From NCBI GenBank assembly GCA_001777915.1, contig MFFN01000006.1, positions 124,001 to 188,000 of the forward strand: a stretch of DNA of 64,000 nucleotides, written 5' to 3'. The notes below the pieces were generated by a model that made no database searches, was not told where the DNA came from, and saw only the letters and a program-made list of their open reading frames with translations. Source of the DNA: Candidatus Edwardsbacteria bacterium RifOxyA12_full_54_48. Lineage in GTDB: Bacteria; Edwardsbacteria; AC1; EtOH8. The position numbers and the translations under genes were made by a program. Shown in pieces: positions 12,015-36,963 of this stretch. Every line of letters starts with the position of its first letter. The first letter of the stretch is position 1.

Positions 12015-12440
12015 TCAAGGTTCTTCCGAACCTTCACAATCTTCGAATTCCTTTAGTAACTCGCCCTTTTTATGGTGCTCTTTCTGCCCGCTGATATAAA
12101 TTTTGATCCTTGGCACAGCATGTTTGCTCACGGATAAAACGCCATAACCGTTTTGCCAATATAATTGTTTTTTGCCTTGGAAATGTTTATTTACATCGTA
12201 CGATGAACTGCCTTTTAACGCATGGGCTACATCGGATATCAATTGTGCCGGACGCAAGGATAACAATATATGGACATGATCCTCCGTGCCGTTTATCGCC
12301 AATAAATGATAACCTTCTTGTTTGCATTTTTGCCCGATGCATGCGAATAAATAACGCTCTATCTCTTCGTCAATATACGGTTTGTCATCCTTGGTGTGCC
12401 AAACAAAATGATAAAACAATTCGTAATGAACCTTCGGCAT
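12015..12440 (-). CDS. REP-associated tyrosine transposase (IS200-like Y1 family)
   Basis: 141 residues of the Y1 HUH single-strand transposase fold. The HUH motif is in T-E-D-H-V-H-I-L-L (about residue 59) and the catalytic Tyr in I-K-I-Y-I-S-G-Q-K-E-H-H (about 119). It opens with a H-F-V-W-H-T-K segment typical of the family. ATG 12440 is preferred over TTG 12458. The flanks are copies of a two-hairpin palindrome, as expected if the enzyme mobilises them. A perfect hairpin (AAGGTTC/GAACCTT, 12017-12034) overlaps the last codons and stop. Known RAYTs act on REP palindromes; activity here is inferred. Confidence 0.9.
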   Translation of the reverse strand: MPKVHYELFYHFVWHTKDDKPYIDEEIERYLFACIGQKCKQEGYHLLAINGTEDHVHILLSLRPAQLISDVAHALKGSSSYDVNKHFQGKKQLYWQNGYGVLSVSKHAVPRIKIYISGQKEHHKKGELLKEFEDCEGSEEP

Positions 12441-12482
12441 ATTATAATACCGCCACAATCTTTTAACACAAACCCGTTTTCA

Positions 12483-12660
12483 GGCCGCCCCAGCGGCCTT
12501 GTTGACTTGCCAGCGATAGGTTTCAACCTATCGCAAAATAAATGACAATATAAGAAATGAATTTTATCCCCCATTACAGCGATACCATGAATGATATCGC
12601 TGGTTTTCACCAAGGCTTGCCCAGGCAAGCCTGCCCGTTTTCAGGCCGCCCCAGCGGCCT
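12483..12660. repeat. RAYT-associated array, module 1 (contains palindrome unit 2)
   Basis: Order of parts: stem GGCCGC/GCGGCC (about 12483-12498), the 94-base unit 2 (12510-12603, same ends and two hairpins as unit 1), then a variable hairpin AGGCTTGCC/GGCAAGCCT (12613-12632), then GGCCGC/GCGGCC again (12643-12659). No gene is seen in 12459-12892 apart from the folD remnant. Confidence 0.85.
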
Positions 12661-12670
12661 TGTTGATTTT

Positions 12671-12764
12671 CCAGCGATAGGTTTCAACCTATCGCAAAAT
12701 AAATGACAATATAAGAAATGAATTTTATCCCCCATCACAGCGATACCATAAATGATATCGCTGG
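12671..12764. repeat. RAYT-associated palindromic repeat, unit 3
   Basis: 94 bases, nearly identical to unit 2, including the internal AAATAAATGACAATATAAGA stretch. It is followed by the hairpin AGGTTC/GAACCT (12774-12788, the same variable stem as at the RAYT stop) and another GGCCGC-type stem (12799-12814). Confidence 0.87.
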
Positions 12765-12824
12765 TTAGCATCAAGGTTCTTCCGAACCTCCATTTCAGGC
12801 CGCACCAGCGGCCTTGTTGACTTT

Positions 12825-12849
12825 CCAGCGGTAGGTTTCAACCTATCGC
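12825..12849. repeat. RAYT-associated palindromic repeat, partial unit 4
   Basis: Only the left half is present: CCAGCGGTAGGTTTC then AACCTATCGC, with one change in the stem. It breaks off just before the folD 5' remnant, marking the edge of the array. Confidence 0.75.
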
Positions 12850-12871
12850 TTTATCCATCGCTGCCTACACC

Positions 12872-12931
12872 CCTGCCGGATCTCGGCAGATATTATTTTA
12901 CCGTCGATGATTTGTGACATCGTTTTATTAC
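12872..12931 (-). pseudogene. folD 5'-end remnant
   Basis: Read on the minus strand, this encodes M-S-Q-I-I-D-G-K-I-I-S-A-E-I-R-Q, almost the same as the start of the intact folD (M-V-Q-I-I-D-G-K...). After about 17 codons it runs into the hairpin array and a stop. The copies differ at several bases, so the event is not recent. The 3' end of the MT-A70 gene overlaps it in another frame. Confidence 0.85.
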
Positions 12932-13594
12932 AGGTTTCTTGTATTTTTTTCGTTTTTCAAGTACTACAGTTTGTGATGTTGCTTGGCTATGGTTTTTGTA
13001 AGTAGACCAACTTGGATAGTATTTTTCTGTTTGATTGCCAAAAACATCCCAGCCCTCACGTTTACCCCGGGCAAACAATTCCAGATATGGACCAGAGCTG
13101 CATTTTTCAATTATTTTATACAATTCATCAGGTTTTCTAGAATGCTCTTGTTTTTGTGTTCTAATTATATTTACTTGAGATCTGCCGGGGCCTAGTGTTC
13201 TAACTTTACCTCTTATACCAAACAAAACTACCTCGGTTGTATTTCTGAAATAAAAGCCAACCCCTCTTCCGTCTGGGCCGCCATCTTTTCTTACTTTATG
13301 CCATATCATATTTGTTTTATATTCAAAACCCCAAGCCTTCATAACCTCTAAACCTTCAGGCAAAAGAGCATTGGGTACCCATAAATATAAATGGCTTTTT
13401 TCAGCCGCTACAATAGGAATGGGCATTTCTTTAATCTGATCTAACGATAAGGTATCATATCTGTTTAATCTTTTATGCTCTGGGGCAACCTTACCTGATC
13501 TATTATTAAAGCGCCATGGCGGATCGGCAAGAATAGTGCCGTATTTTTTACTTTTAAAATTATTAACAAATATTTCAGCAATAGTCGGTTCCAT
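12893..13594 (-). CDS. MT-A70 family DNA adenine-N6 methyltransferase of a type II restriction-modification pair
   Basis: About 233 residues. It has the amino-methyltransferase catalytic motif DPPW (about residue 24), a Y-L-W-V-P-N segment and the SAM-binding P-Y-L-E-L-F-A-R-G-K-R-x-G-W-D-V-F-G-N-Q region near residue 170, the hallmark of MT-A70 enzymes. The ATG at 13594 has an AGAGAG site inside the end of the endonuclease gene, with which it overlaps; a TTG at 13603 is less likely. The Lys-rich C-terminus reads into the folD remnant, so the last residues may not be ancestral. It should protect the host against the adjacent BglII-like nuclease. AT-rich, so probably acquired. Confidence 0.88.
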   Translation of the reverse strand: MEPTIAEIFVNNFKSKKYGTILADPPWRFNNRSGKVAPEHKRLNRYDTLSLDQIKEMPIPIVAAEKSHLYLWVPNALLPEGLEVMKAWGFEYKTNMIWHKVRKDGGPDGRGVGFYFRNTTEVVLFGIRGKVRTLGPGRSQVNIIRTQKQEHSRKPDELYKIIEKCSSGPYLELFARGKREGWDVFGNQTEKYYPSWSTYKNHSQATSQTVVLEKRKKYKKPVIKRCHKSSTVK

Positions 13595-13596
13595 TT

Positions 13597-14187
13597 TCAA
13601 CAACTCTCTTTATATAATTTTTCAGTTATACCTAAAACTAAAATGGGACACCCGGCCCCACCGCCGCCTTGTATTCTAGGTATCAACTTCGACATATGAG
13701 TCGTTGAAGCACCATAGGAACTGCCACGACCCAACTTGTCAAATATTTCTTGAAGTTGATCACATCTTGTAATTATTACCCCAACACTAATTGCTCTCAA
13801 ATCAAACAATAAACGAAAATTGTTTAAGTCTCTATCAAAAAATGGATCTTTGTTATTCCATTCAATTTCTAAAGCAACACGATTTTTATAACAATCTACT
13901 TTATGGGTTGGCGAGTCTGATGTGCGTTCATCTACTTTAACTGATGTTTTGAATTCTTTTTCTACCCAACCCTTTTCGGACAAATATCCATCAATTGCGC
14001 TGGCTACTTTCGATTTTCCGCCACCACCTACTGTAATCCAACTTTTACAAAGCTTAAATTGTTTTAGAAGTTCAACAATATCTGTCCATTCATTTGGAAA
14101 ATCATTTTTTAAAATTGCACAAGCATGCTTCCATTCGTGCACTTCATAGTTGTCTCTTATTTCTTTCGGAAGTAACGTTATTCCCAT
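13597..14187 (-). CDS. BglII/BstYI-like type II restriction endonuclease
   Basis: 196 residues. The central H-K-V-D-C-Y-K-N-R-V-A-L-E-I-E-W-N-N-K stretch (about 96-114) matches the metal-binding core of the BglII/BstYI family, where an Asp and the E-x-E pair take the place of PD-ExK. The following F-F-D-R-D-L-N-N-F-R and V-G-V-I-I-T-R segments also fit. Family members cut AGATCT or RGATCY, so a GATC-centred site is expected but unproven. AAGAGGC precedes the ATG. The gene starts 26 bases after ymdB and runs into the methyltransferase gene. Confidence 0.8.
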   Translation of the reverse strand: MGITLLPKEIRDNYEVHEWKHACAILKNDFPNEWTDIVELLKQFKLCKSWITVGGGGKSKVASAIDGYLSEKGWVEKEFKTSVKVDERTSDSPTHKVDCYKNRVALEIEWNNKDPFFDRDLNNFRLLFDLRAISVGVIITRCDQLQEIFDKLGRGSSYGASTTHMSKLIPRIQGGGGAGCPILVLGITEKLYKESC

Positions 14188-28207: not shown

Positions 28208-28861
28208 TTATATTTTCTTTAAACTCATTAAATCAAATACTTCTCCACATAAATTTTTATCCTTAAGTTCTTTTTGGTAACTATACACCGAGGAATCATG
28301 GGTAATCCCAACTATTTTAGAGCAATACGTAAAAGCAAGAAATATTTGATCAGTTATGTCTGGGATAGGATGCTTTTTTTTGCTAAAAGATAAACGATCT
28401 AACAAAGATTTGCTACTTTTCATTTCATACCGAAAATAATTATCAATACTCCTTAATATGTCGGGTGGTGGTTTAAAATCATCATTTATCTCAAACCAGG
28501 GGTATCTTTTTAGTTTATCAAATTTTTTAAAAAAGCTATTTTGAATTTGATTTTGTATTAAATATGGCATACCCTCACGTTGCATATCAAGTTTTTTCAA
28601 TATTGTTGGATTATTTGCAAAATCTTTAACTATACTCTGCGCAACTGTCTCTTCCTCAATTTCTTTTGCACAATACCTTAAAAAAACAATGCCCCCCCTT
28701 GAACAGAACCACGTAGTTAATTCTTGTGCCTTTTTTGTTTTATCACCATAGTTTATTTCAACGAAGTTGCCGTTTTTTGATTTTAGTGATGTATTAAGGC
28801 AATAAAAAATGACACAATTAGTGTCATATGTTATTTTCTTGCACCCAAGTAATCTATGCAT
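28208..28861 (-). CDS. PIN-domain-like protein (probable RNase) of an inserted three-gene module
   Basis: 217 residues. Near the start, I-T-Y-D-T-N-C-V-I-F fits the first PIN acidic motif (Asp-x-Asn). Near the end, P-D-I-T-D-Q-I-F-L-A followed by G-I-T-H-D-S-S-V-Y fits the later Asp motifs, with a Glu-rich helix between, as in VapC-type and other PIN nucleases. The middle carries a longer insertion than small VapC toxins have. Its start codon touches the stop of the gene before it, so the three genes form one operon from the promoter at 30047-30075. Very AT-rich compared with its neighbours. Confidence 0.6.
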   Translation of the reverse strand: MHRLLGCKKITYDTNCVIFYCLNTSLKSKNGNFVEINYGDKTKKAQELTTWFCSRGGIVFLRYCAKEIEEETVAQSIVKDFANNPTILKKLDMQREGMPYLIQNQIQNSFFKKFDKLKRYPWFEINDDFKPPPDILRSIDNYFRYEMKSSKSLLDRLSFSKKKHPIPDITDQIFLAFTYCSKIVGITHDSSVYSYQKELKDKNLCGEVFDLMSLKKI

Positions 28862-29376
28862 TATAATAAATTATTCTTATTTAAAAAATCAGCAGTAATA
28901 TCTTCAGAAGTTGGTAAAATATTATTACTTGCACAATAATCTTCAATTAAACTAAAATTATCTTTTAGCGTTTGCAGGTTTAGCTTTTTTAATAATTGGG
29001 CGGGGATGCGCCTATATATATTATTAGCACTACTTATATAATCTTTAATTGAATTATTCAAATATTCATTGTTATTTTTGTTTAATTTTAAGGCATATCT
29101 ACAATAATCAAGTGTACCCAGTAAAAATATCTTATTGCTCGACACAGGGAAACATTCTATACAATCAATATTATCATCAACCATATCTAACAAAAATATA
29201 TTTGTTACTTTAATAGGATATAAGAATACAGGGTTTGTCTGATACAACGGACTTACATCTTTATCAAAAAAAGGCGCAGTTAAGCTAAAAATTGTTGCTT
29301 GTGCTCTTATATCAAACTTATTTGTTCGGGTTAAATCAATTGTGCCCGAAATTGTATTAACATAAGCAGTTAACAT
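28861..29376 (-). CDS. Unknown protein, middle gene of the PIN module
   Basis: 171 residues; no family recognised. It has no signal peptide or clear membrane segment. The first half is strand-like with hydrophobic stretches (F-L-Y-P-I-K-V-T-N-I-F-L-L-D), the second half helical and Asn/Lys-rich. It overlaps the preceding gene by seven bases and shares bases of its stop with the PIN gene start, so it is translationally coupled. By analogy with toxin or defence operons it may be a partner or control protein, but nothing in the sequence proves it. Confidence 0.55.
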   Translation of the reverse strand: MLTAYVNTISGTIDLTRTNKFDIRAQATIFSLTAPFFDKDVSPLYQTNPVFLYPIKVTNIFLLDMVDDNIDCIECFPVSSNKIFLLGTLDYCRYALKLNKNNNEYLNNSIKDYISSANNIYRRIPAQLLKKLNLQTLKDNFSLIEDYCASNNILPTSEDITADFLNKNNLL

Positions 29377-30008
29377 GTTATCAACTTTTTAAAAACATTT
29401 TCTAAATGTAAAATCTCATTCGCCTGAATTTGTTTAAGACGAACATTGATTTCTTCTATTTTTAATTTAATATCTTCGTGAAAATGTTGTTGTACCAGCA
29501 ATCCACTCCCATTAAGTTGAAGAGGACTAAATCTCAAATCGTGATGTTGTTCTGGGGTTCCATAAAATATACGCGTAGAATTACCAATGACCTTTTCTGT
29601 CAACAACTCCTCCAATTTAGGCTTATCTTTTAGAAAATTATCTGCGATCCACTCTGCAGCATTTTGATTTTGCATATTGCATTGTGCAAATAAATTTAAC
29701 CCTACTGCTTTTATTGAAAACGTGGAACAACTATCACTTAACGCTTGTATTACATCGGTGGCAAAAGAAACTATATTCCTATCACTAAAAGGCAAGTTTT
29801 GAGAATTTGTAATTTCAATTCTATTTGTTTGTATATTTATTTCTGTATTGTTTTTTGAATCCACCAATATAACGCCGGGGGGTATCTTAGCTGCAATATC
29901 AAATTGCCTGGCTTTTTGTAAATTATCGATGGAAATATCTTGTATATTTAATGGGTCACAAATAAAAACCACCACGAGCTCTTTTGATGTATATTCCTTT
30001 GAACTCAT
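29370..30008 (-). CDS. Unknown protein, first gene of the PIN module
   Basis: 212 residues; no family recognised. A predicted alpha/beta first half (V-V-V-F-I-C-D-P-L-N, I-P-P-G-V-I-L-V-D-S) is followed by a helical end with a coiled pattern (I-K-L-K-I-E-E-I-N-V-R-L-K-Q-I). No export signal. ATG 30008 has AAGAGG upstream and lies about 30 bases after the predicted start of transcription. As the first gene of the module it would be made in largest amount. Confidence 0.55.
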   Translation of the reverse strand: MSSKEYTSKELVVVFICDPLNIQDISIDNLQKARQFDIAAKIPPGVILVDSKNNTEINIQTNRIEITNSQNLPFSDRNIVSFATDVIQALSDSCSTFSIKAVGLNLFAQCNMQNQNAAEWIADNFLKDKPKLEELLTEKVIGNSTRIFYGTPEQHHDLRFSPLQLNGSGLLVQQHFHEDIKLKIEEINVRLKQIQANEILHLENVFKKLITC

Positions 30009-33911: not shown

Positions 33912-34652
33912 TCACATCACCAAACCACCGTCCACGTGCAGCACCTGGCCTGTTATATAAGAGGCCTGCTCCGAGACCAAAAACATCACCGCGTTAGCCA
34001 CGTCGTCCACGCTGCCCATCCGGCCCAGAGGAATGCCCTTCTTGTAGTTCTCCTTGACCTCCTCTGTCAGTTTGGCGGTCATGGCGGTTTCGATAAAGCC
34101 CGGGGCGATGGCGTTGCAGGTGATGTTGCGCGAGGCGAACTCCTTGGCGGTGGATTTGGTGAAGGCGATCAGTCCGCCCTTGCTGGCCGCGTAGTTGGAC
34201 TGCCCGGCATTGCCCATCACGCCGATGACCGACGACATGTTGACTATCCGGCCCTGGCGCTGTTTCATCATGATCCGGGAGACGGCCTTGGTCAGCAGAA
34301 AGGCACCTTTGAGGTTGACATCCAGCACCAGGTCCCAGTCCTTTTCCTCCATCCGCATCATCAGGTTATCCCTGGTAACGCCCGCATTATTGACCAAAAT
34401 GTCAATAGTGTCAAATGTCTCTTGCGTTTTCTTAACAAGTTCACTGACCTCATTGGCATCGGCCACATTGCACTTGACAGCTAGTGCCTTTCTGCCTAAA
34501 GCCTCAATTTCTTTGGCGGTCTTCTCGGCCTCTTCGATGTTGACATCGCTGACCACAATGTTGGCCCCGGCCTTGGCCAGCGCCAGGGCGATGGATTTCC
34601 CTATCCCCTGGGCCGATCCGGTTACGATGGCGTTTTTATCTTTTAACTGCAT
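33912..34652 (-). CDS. fabG: 3-oxoacyl-[ACP] reductase
   Basis: About 246 residues. NADPH-dependent short-chain dehydrogenase of fatty acid elongation. It shows the nucleotide site T-G-S-A-Q-G-I-G-K, N-N-A-G and the Ser-Tyr-Lys triad (S-S-V-I, then Y-A-A-S-K). ATG 34652 fits the family start; one at 34661 adds three residues. No good ribosome site is seen, perhaps because the HEPN-like gene inserted just upstream separated fabG from its former coupling to fabD. Confidence 0.95.
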   Translation of the reverse strand: MQLKDKNAIVTGSAQGIGKSIALALAKAGANIVVSDVNIEEAEKTAKEIEALGRKALAVKCNVADANEVSELVKKTQETFDTIDILVNNAGVTRDNLMMRMEEKDWDLVLDVNLKGAFLLTKAVSRIMMKQRQGRIVNMSSVIGVMGNAGQSNYAASKGGLIAFTKSTAKEFASRNITCNAIAPGFIETAMTAKLTEEVKENYKKGIPLGRMGSVDDVANAVMFLVSEQASYITGQVLHVDGGLVM

Positions 34653-34678
34653 GTTATACATTTGGTATGTTATTAAGT

Positions 34679-35239
34679 TTATTTGTAATTTTTATCTCTA
34701 ATATATTTTGATAAAGAAAATGCCAGATCTATATATTCACGAACTTCATTAATTGGAAATTTAATATCGGGGGAATGAACCGCCATGTTTCTTAAATTAC
34801 GGAGTTTACCAAATATCGCAGCTTTCTTATCATCTAAAATTTCTGACCTTACGAGAAATCCCGACAATTGTAAAGGCGATATATATGTATGTTCATAAAA
34901 TACTTTATTCACACCTACCAATGACTCTGCTGCTGCACTCTCTACCTCCAGCCATGCTTCTAGTATTGCACTTCGCGGGGATAAATCAATAAGAGCAAGT
35001 ACCTGATTCTTTTTTTCGTCTTCCCCTTGAGAAGGTATAGGTAATTTTGCATTTGCTGTTTCATTAACCAATTCTTTCATTGATTGTTGAAACTCCAACT
35101 CAAAATCCTTATATTTTAATTTTTGAAGATACTGTAATAGATTAGCAATTTTCTCTTTAAAAGTGAAAAATAACAATACAATGGTCACCGGCCAAATGAT
35201 AGCCTTGATTATTTCAACTATAAAAGTTAAAACGTCCAT
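34679..35239 (-). CDS. Membrane-anchored HEPN/DUF4145-like protein inserted in the FAS II operon
   Basis: 186 residues. One N-terminal membrane helix (about 6-27), then a charged coiled stretch (30-70), then a helical domain with L-R-N-L-R-N-M-A-V-H near residue 152. R-N-x-x-x-H is the R-x4-H motif of HEPN RNase-type domains, and the setting resembles DUF4145. HEPN proteins often serve in toxin-antitoxin and phage-defence systems; that role here is inferred. AT-rich, unlike fabD and fabG. It starts six bases after the fabD stop and ends 17 bases before the first fabG start, so it must ride on the operon's transcript. Confidence 0.65.
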   Translation of the reverse strand: MDVLTFIVEIIKAIIWPVTIVLLFFTFKEKIANLLQYLQKLKYKDFELEFQQSMKELVNETANAKLPIPSQGEDEKKNQVLALIDLSPRSAILEAWLEVESAAAESLVGVNKVFYEHTYISPLQLSGFLVRSEILDDKKAAIFGKLRNLRNMAVHSPDIKFPINEVREYIDLAFSLSKYIRDKNYK

Positions 35240-35245
35240 ACCTAT

Positions 35246-36181
35246 CTACTTCTTCAACGCTTCCATCGTCTCCGCCAAAGTCTTGCTATCCTCCACGTTT
35301 AGCACGTTGACCTCAGGAGCAATACGTTTGATAAGCCCCTTCAACACCCGGCCGGGGCCGCACTCGATCATGGTGGTCACGCCCAGCTCGGCCATCTTTT
35401 TAACTGATTCCTCCCAGCGCACCGGCTTCTTCACCTGCTCGATCAAAAGCTCTTTGATGGTGGCCGGGCTGTGCACCGGCTCGGCCGAGACGTTGGCGAT
35501 CACCGGGCAGGCCGGCTCTTTTATCGTGATCTGATTGAGCGCCCGTCTCATGCCGTACTGGGCGATGTCCATCAACTCCGAATGAAAGGCCCCGGAGACC
35601 TCCAATTGTACCGCCCGCTTGGCCCCCTTGGCCTTGGCCAGCTCCATGGCCTTCTCTATGGCCCTGACCTCGCCGGAGATCACCGTCTGCTCGGCCGAGT
35701 TGAAATTGGCGGCCTCCACGATGCCGGCCTCCCGGGCCTGGTGGCAGATATTTTCCACCTCCCTGGGCTCCAGCCCGATGATGGCCGCCATGGTGCCGGG
35801 CTGGATGTCGCCAGAGATGGCCATCAGCGAACCGCGGATGCGTACTAATCTGACTGCGTCCTCAAAGGCTACGGCCCCGGCGGCCACCAGGGCGGAATAC
35901 TCGCCCAGGCTGTGCCCGGCGGTATAATCGAATTTGATGCCCTCCTTCTCCATCAGCCGGAAGGCGGCAATGGAGTGGATCAGGATGGCCGGCTGTGCGT
36001 TGTGGGTCATCCGCAATTCGGCCGGGGTGCTCTCGAAGCAGATCTTGGTGATGTCGAACTTTAAGGCCTCGTTGGCCTTCTCGTAGGTCTCCTTGGCCAT
36101 GGGATGGTTGTCGTAAAGGTCCTTGCCCATGCCCACGTACTGGGCGCCCTGTCCGGGGAATATAAAAGCTAATTTGGACAT
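35246..36181 (-). CDS. fabD: Malonyl-CoA:ACP transacylase
   Basis: About 311 residues. Loads malonate onto ACP. Seen are the N-terminal F-P-G-Q-G-A-Q, the nucleophile motif G-H-S-L-G-E (about residue 90), an R in the substrate-binding R-G-S-L-M segment, and the G-A-F-H-S His (about 200). ATG 36181 is used because homology begins there; upstream in-frame sequence is spacer shared with the inserted lipoprotein gene. Confidence 0.96.
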   Translation of the reverse strand: MSKLAFIFPGQGAQYVGMGKDLYDNHPMAKETYEKANEALKFDITKICFESTPAELRMTHNAQPAILIHSIAAFRLMEKEGIKFDYTAGHSLGEYSALVAAGAVAFEDAVRLVRIRGSLMAISGDIQPGTMAAIIGLEPREVENICHQAREAGIVEAANFNSAEQTVISGEVRAIEKAMELAKAKGAKRAVQLEVSGAFHSELMDIAQYGMRRALNQITIKEPACPVIANVSAEPVHSPATIKELLIEQVKKPVRWEESVKKMAELGVTTMIECGPGRVLKGLIKRIAPEVNVLNVEDSKTLAETMEALKK

Positions 36182-36225: not shown

Positions 36226-36963
36226 TTAAGGATAACGCACCGGGACCATTACCCACACTTCAACCGGCCTTTTATCAACAGCTATAGCCGGAGTAAATAG
36301 ATAGCCATAAAAACAATTCAATGCCGCACTATCCAAGCTGATAGAACCTGACGATTTTGCAATTACCACCTCATCAACCAAACCATTAAAAGTTACTTTA
36401 CCTTGTAAATACACACAGCCTGTATCTGGGCCGGAATAATCCAATGGCGCTATACGTATAAGTTCCGGAGATATCTCGATTGCTCTAGCTGTATCCGTTG
36501 TGCCTATGGCCAAACTGCATGACATAAAAGTGTTCATTAGTTTTGCAGCAGTATCAAGAGAAGCTATAAAATTGCCGTTTGAAACAGGGATTGCTGTACA
36601 AAACTTATCTTTCCAATCAAAACCCGTTCTTTCTCTTAACCAAATAACCAAGGTCGAAGTATCGGATACCACACAAGTCGTCAAAACAGCTACATAATCA
36701 ACCTTATGATTTATAGACCACTCTAAAAATTGTTTATTAGTAGCACAAGGTATGTCATCTATTTTATTTACTAAGCAAGGCAATAATAGTTTCCGGAAAT
36801 TATAAAATATCTCATCACTTGCCGTGCTGTCTTTTGCCGCAACGTATACGCCTACTTTATATAAATTTGTACTACCATAAATTACAGGATTATCCTTGCT
36901 GCAACCGATTGTAAAAATAAACACAGAAGAAAGAAGAAGGCAAAAATTAATAAAATTGCGCAT
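36226..36963 (-). CDS. Lipoprotein with a TonB C-terminal-like domain, inserted in the FAS II operon
   Basis: 245 residues. The signal ends in a lipobox (F-T-I-G-C, Cys21), so it is a lipoprotein. The last 70 residues (G-K-V-T-F-N-G-L-V-D-E-V, S-L-D-S-A-A-L, then P-V-E-V-W-V-M-V-P-V) follow the pattern of TonB/energy-transducer C-terminal domains. The membrane anchor and Pro-rich linker of true TonB are absent, so it is not an ordinary TonB. AT-rich, between fabH and fabD, where no such gene belongs. Function unknown. Confidence 0.65.
   Translation of the reverse strand: MRNFINFCLLLSSVFIFTIGCSKDNPVIYGSTNLYKVGVYVAAKDSTASDEIFYNFRKLLLPCLVNKIDDIPCATNKQFLEWSINHKVDYVAVLTTCVVSDTSTLVIWLRERTGFDWKDKFCTAIPVSNGNFIASLDTAAKLMNTFMSCSLAIGTTDTARAIEISPELIRIAPLDYSGPDTGCVYLQGKVTFNGLVDEVVIAKSSGSISLDSAALNCFYGYLFTPAIAVDKRPVEVWVMVPVRYP

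Follow-up and report, generated by a model that had tools for sequence, protein, structure and literature searches.

The gene at the fabD-fabG junction of this genome raises the question of whether a putative membrane-anchored RNase encoded inside the FAS II operon is tied to lipid synthesis, or is cargo that has come to lie there. In the window, the whole 64,000-nucleotide stretch of DNA analysed, the earlier note had placed a single AT-rich gene for a HEPN-like protein between fabD and fabG, and this placement proved exact:

34679..35239, minus strand: WP-TM HEPN gene, 186 aa (from the reading frame and homologue family)
35246..36181, minus strand: fabD, the operon gene upstream, its stop 6 nt before the HEPN start
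33912..34661, minus strand: fabG, the operon gene downstream

The HEPN reading frame is intact, with 186 codons from an ATG start to a TAA stop, and ends ~20-30 nt before the fabG start. GC content in the fabD-fabG gap is 32%, against ~58% in the surroundings and 55-65% in most of the fab sequence alongside, and on this basis the gap was read as foreign. On the coding strand, no terminator-like site was seen from fabD to fabG, gene interior included, so that the HEPN gene is likely co-transcribed with the fab operon. A promoter-like match inside the gene carries no weight either way.

Two further AT-rich inserts occur in the same fab cluster, at 28.2-30.0 kb and 36.2-37.0 kb. The former (window 28208-30008) holds three genes downstream of an acyl-CoA dehydrogenase gene, and one of the products is PIN-like by eye and lacks a Pfam match. 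The matching slot in a relative, G002, contains different AT-rich genes, one of them HicB-like by eye, and no HEPN was recognised by eye in this second cargo slot, 3′ of the acyl-CoA dehydrogenase gene, among the relatives. The latter (window 36226-36963) is an AT-rich lipoprotein gene between fabH and fabD, with a TonB-like C-terminal domain; it is present in G002 and G003 and missing from the other relatives with an assembled fabH-fabD junction. At window 12015-14187, also AT-rich, transposase-like, MT-A70-like methyltransferase and restriction-enzyme-like genes (all named by eye) adjoin one another, and these are missing in G002.

The protein itself was divided into the following parts, with conservation expressed over 51 homologue clusters defined at <70% identity:

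35162..35233, minus strand: membrane helix, residues 3-26 (hydropathy and model helix)
35189-35194, minus strand: W16-P17 within the membrane helix (W16 in 48/51 and P17 in 49/51 clusters)
35048..35158, minus strand: helical stalk, residues 28-64 (structure model and alignment)
34685..35017, minus strand: HEPN domain, residues 75-185 (domain-only model, fold search, and Pfam DUF4145 in relatives)
34973..34981, minus strand: S87-P88-R89 (SPR), start of the first HEPN helix (51/51, 51/51 and 50/51 clusters)
34775..34792, minus strand: R150-N151-M-A-V-H155, the Rx4H motif of HEPN RNases (alignment)

The protein has a single strongly hydrophobic helix, at residues ~3-26, where hydropathy peaks at 2.3 (Kyte-Doolittle, 19-residue) against values below 1.0 past residue 45, in agreement with the membrane helix noted earlier. 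What had been described as a coiled stretch corresponds in the model to the helical stalk, which has a conserved K-x4-E-x2-F segment (K42, E47, F50). There are no K/R in residues 1-5 and five in residues 27-46; this charge bias alone suggests that the N-terminus would lie outside and the HEPN domain in the cytoplasm.

The R-N-x-x-x-H motif reported for this protein was located at residues 150-155 and found to be kept in homologues, with R150 and N151 each in 50/51 clusters and H155 in 48/51. Both R150 and H155 were present in 70 of 73 aligned sequences. E100 was likewise invariant or nearly so, as were W16-P17, SPR, R150-N151 and H155. Judged by this conservation, the Rx4H motif is not a chance occurrence. 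The site is degraded in a few relatives: R or H is lost in L058, L068 and L008, and L004, a relative in G002, lacks the catalytic Arg while retaining the His. This indicates that catalysis is not universal among the relatives. The L004 gene (L004:1003-1635) is a divergent one of the WP-TM, DUF4145-like type and lies at another site in G002.

AlphaFold modelled the whole protein with a pLDDT of 93.6, residues 75-185 being all-helical, and the HEPN domain alone with a pLDDT of 93.8 and a pTM of 0.86. In a Foldseek search with the domain-only model, the best 27 PDB matches were all HEPN-fold proteins, among them AF_0298 (TM 0.75, probability 1.00), SO_3166/HepT (HepT being an RNase toxin), HI0074, YutE and MtlR; YutE, MtlR and the Thermus proteins in the list are ones that we take to belong to the HEPN fold. 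The E-values were all >0.05, and the evidence therefore lies in the uniformity of the match list. A sequence-profile search of PDB chains returned HepT first, with Csm6 included, over the Rx4H helix and at non-significant E-values.

Against Pfam DUF4145 the window protein scored 13.8 bits (cut-off 23.1), and it fell below cut-off for HEPN models, whereas a Citrobacter relative scored 33.4 bits, above the DUF4145 cut-off. DUF4145 was matched by 29 of 43 family members at E<0.01, and some relatives matched other Pfam HEPN models. Weak matches to Pfam HemN_C and TORTIFOLIA1, and to NCBIfam models, were taken as chance or cross-matches. PADLOC gave no match for the window protein, and Foldseek of the whole protein against viral models gave no usable match. 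With a confident model, a uniform set of fold matches and conserved Arg and His, the HEPN-like assignment made earlier was confirmed; neither outcome named as refuting it, a non-HEPN fold or loss of R-x4-H among homologues, was obtained. The data support reading the window protein as a membrane-anchored HEPN of the DUF4145-like WP-TM group.

This group, named for its N-terminal 'WP' membrane helix and overlapping Pfam DUF4145, was described in 2013, with an example from Vibrio cholerae (Anantharaman et al. 2013, PMC3710099). Since the anatomy is as described there, the window protein belongs to a known group, to which it adds one member with anatomy unchanged; the unusual feature is its location in a FAS II operon. 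Its members were predicted to be membrane-coupled RNases that target RNA on the inner side of the membrane, a bacterial counterpart of Ire1-like RNA decay. Membrane sensing, raised in the earlier note as a possibility along with sensing of phage disturbance, was already predicted for them (PMC3710099). No activity data or experiments on the WP-TM HEPN group were found in the literature searched.

Comparison with other known systems separated the protein from each. HepT of the type VII HEPN/MNT system shares the HEPN fold and Rx4H, and has an HXY tyrosine that is adenylylated by MntA (PMC7641770). The window protein, in contrast, is membrane-anchored and has neither an MNT partner in its gap nor the HXY tyrosine; residue H+2 is P, and Y occurs there in 2 of 73 aligned sequences. 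The HEPN/MNT control mode is thus not applicable without that tyrosine, and control of the MNT type was rejected on this and on the missing partner. BxaP, a BREX-associated protein for which protection of E. coli from T4 has been reported (PMC10799925), also has a DUF4145 (HEPN-type) domain, but is larger, carries a C-terminal HEAT-like region, and is not of the WP-TM form. The second bacterial TM-HEPN group, of the Abi2/SWT1 family (PMC3710099), is likewise membrane-tethered with a predicted catalytic HEPN, but belongs to another HEPN family and has an extra all-helical domain before its conserved TM helix.

Homologues were sought to establish how the gene is distributed. Single-sequence searches of genome contigs and viral contigs found nothing, while a six-sequence alignment used as query recovered 59 loci in genome contigs and 11 in viral contigs. 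The family is sparse and patchy, occurring in 5 of 386 genomes of a broad sample. Members are borne on plasmids of Shewanella, Citrobacter and Salinivibrio, by the P1-like phage D6 and one Peduoviridae phage, and on IMG/VR contigs, and transposases and integrases lie near some of them. As a 32% GC insert from a family found in 5/386 genomes, with plasmid and phage copies, the window gene is by these signs one acquired horizontally. In phage D6 (L010:3764-4321) the WP-TM HEPN gene has a ddrB-like gene on its 5′ side and comes one gene ahead of the portal gene; this copy is possibly a superinfection-exclusion gene.

A CD-NTase was found beside the WP-TM HEPN gene, or one gene away, in 3 of ~48 sampled loci:

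L014:4032-6558: in order, SLATT, SMODS cyclase, WP-TM HEPN
L033:5953-7505: WP-TM HEPN, then CD-NTase
L020:5995-8582: WP-TM HEPN, then CapV-like patatin and CD-NTase

These neighbours support, though they do not prove, a conflict-gene setting. No recurrent partner gene was found in 76 homologous loci. The defence or toxin role raised earlier is therefore sustained in part: carriage on phages and plasmids, nearby transposases and integrases, and the three CD-NTase loci speak for it, and the missing constant partner speaks against it.

The functional tie to lipid synthesis, also proposed earlier, was not borne out. None of the 76 loci had fabD, fabH, fabF, acpP or plsX near the homologue, and the only fabG matches, four in all, were generic short-chain dehydrogenases. 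The loci thus show no conserved association with lipid synthesis. Nor was a WP-TM HEPN found at the fabD-fabG site of the eight relatives with an assembled gap, which hold different cargo there. A FAS II-specific function was rejected, none of these homologues lying beside fab genes; on the favoured reading the HEPN protein does not regulate fatty-acid synthesis and is cargo.

The junction was surveyed in nine family members in which it is assembled, the window genome included. The contents of the gaps that bear on the HEPN question were:

Window gap, 34650-35245: WP-TM HEPN
G001 gap (L094): 145-aa zinc-ribbon-like protein
G003 gap (L095): lipoprotein and MtlR-like HEPN (RKIRNEFAH)
G005 gap (L099): HEPN+MNT pair and lipoprotein
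G009 gap (L097): lipoprotein and MNT+HepT pair, with motifs GSx10DVD and RDNLIHGY
Other junction loci: L093 (G002), L096 (G006), L098 (G007) and L100 (G008)

Extra DNA, of 556-1,904 bp, was present in all nine gaps. A secreted lipoprotein was found in seven, and HEPN genes of differing types in four (window, G003, G005 and G009). In the assembled members of this bacterial family, the junction serves as a cargo slot. The slot lipoprotein had no orthologue elsewhere in G000, where there were distant domain matches only, mostly in large proteins. In G003, the last ~60 nt of fabD are duplicated between the lipoprotein and HEPN genes (L095:3955-4035). The copy ends in KK-stop, as does fabD of G000 and G001, while the genome's own fabD ends in KKV-stop; it is probably a scar left when the junction recombined with a slot carrying other cargo. 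The G003 HEPN is 35% identical to the protein adjoining a WP-TM HEPN on a Shewanella plasmid.

These data might be taken to mean that the slot selects HEPN RNases, the FAS II transcript tying their dose or activation to lipid synthesis and stalled synthesis or membrane damage releasing the enzyme; this extends the idea of the earlier note from a single gene to the slot. The slot would then recruit varied HEPN RNases that couple growth arrest to the membrane-lipid state, with cassettes swapped via fabD recombination, an exchange to which the duplicated fabD tail of G003 points. We consider both selection and recruitment of this kind unlikely. Four of nine gaps do hold HEPN genes, of different types, and in a chance model with ~31 HEPN genes in nine genomes, assuming 2,200 gaps per genome, the probability that four genomes share one given gap is about 3 × 10−10, or 6 × 10−7 over all gaps. 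This statistic shows the junction to be a hot slot. The case for a preference for HEPN in particular is weaker: HEPN genes make up 4/5 non-lipoprotein acquisitions, P = 3 × 10−5 to 3 × 10−2 at background HEPN shares of 5-30%, in a pattern noticed post hoc among nine genomes. All nine gaps are loaded and seven hold a lipoprotein, so that the slot may simply be hot. Of the four slot HEPN proteins, three are soluble and two are paired with an MNT antitoxin, and the remaining WP-TM family is without fab neighbours. A comparison of G000 and G002 over 264 kb gave 76 accessory ORFs, many of them possibly spurious and a minority Pfam-scanned, and among these no HEPN other than the window gene was recognised.

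Other readings concern the activity of the protein. It could be a HEPN that is dead or lacks catalysis and instead engages RNA or a partner at the membrane, perhaps in a structural or regulatory role, as the lost sites of L058, L068 and L008 and the missing Arg of L004 would allow. The window copy, however, is full-length with its near-invariant residues intact, and R and H occur together in 70/73 sequences, making this quite improbable. Still less probable, in our estimation, is an accessory effector of a CBASS-like defence, activated by a cyclic nucleotide and here stranded or acting in trans. In L014, L033 and L020, with a CD-NTase adjacent or one gene away, the WP-TM HEPN is possibly such an effector; but there is no cyclase in the window gap or at most sampled homologue loci, a ligand-binding domain is not visible, and neighbours in a defence island need not be partners.

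Given the HEPN fold, conserved Rx4H, membrane helix, mobility and partner absence computed here, the gene probably encodes an acquired stand-alone WP-TM HEPN, a membrane-tethered RNase toxin occupying an operon cargo slot. For its catalysis, dimerisation, trigger, target and expression we infer the following course. The HEPN domain would sit on the cytoplasmic membrane face and dimerise, as HEPN toxins usually do, with R150 and H155 forming the RNase site. The membrane helix and stalk may restrain the dimer until it is rearranged in response to a signal from the membrane or from infection, and the released enzyme would then cut cellular or phage RNA and stop growth, in abortive infection or stress arrest. 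The gene would have spread by transfer and been parked in a permissive slot, where the operon transcript probably supplies expression. Against this stands that a toxin acting alone, with no antitoxin and in an operon that is presumably well expressed, would have to be strongly controlled from within.

For the WP-TM group, the alignment and model supply a residue-level handle, R150 and H155, on a predicted RNase. New here is the FAS II junction as a cargo slot, with HEPN of different types in four of nine species. A HEPN-rich slot in an essential FAS II operon would, if true, represent an unusual settling of conflict genes in core lipid metabolism.
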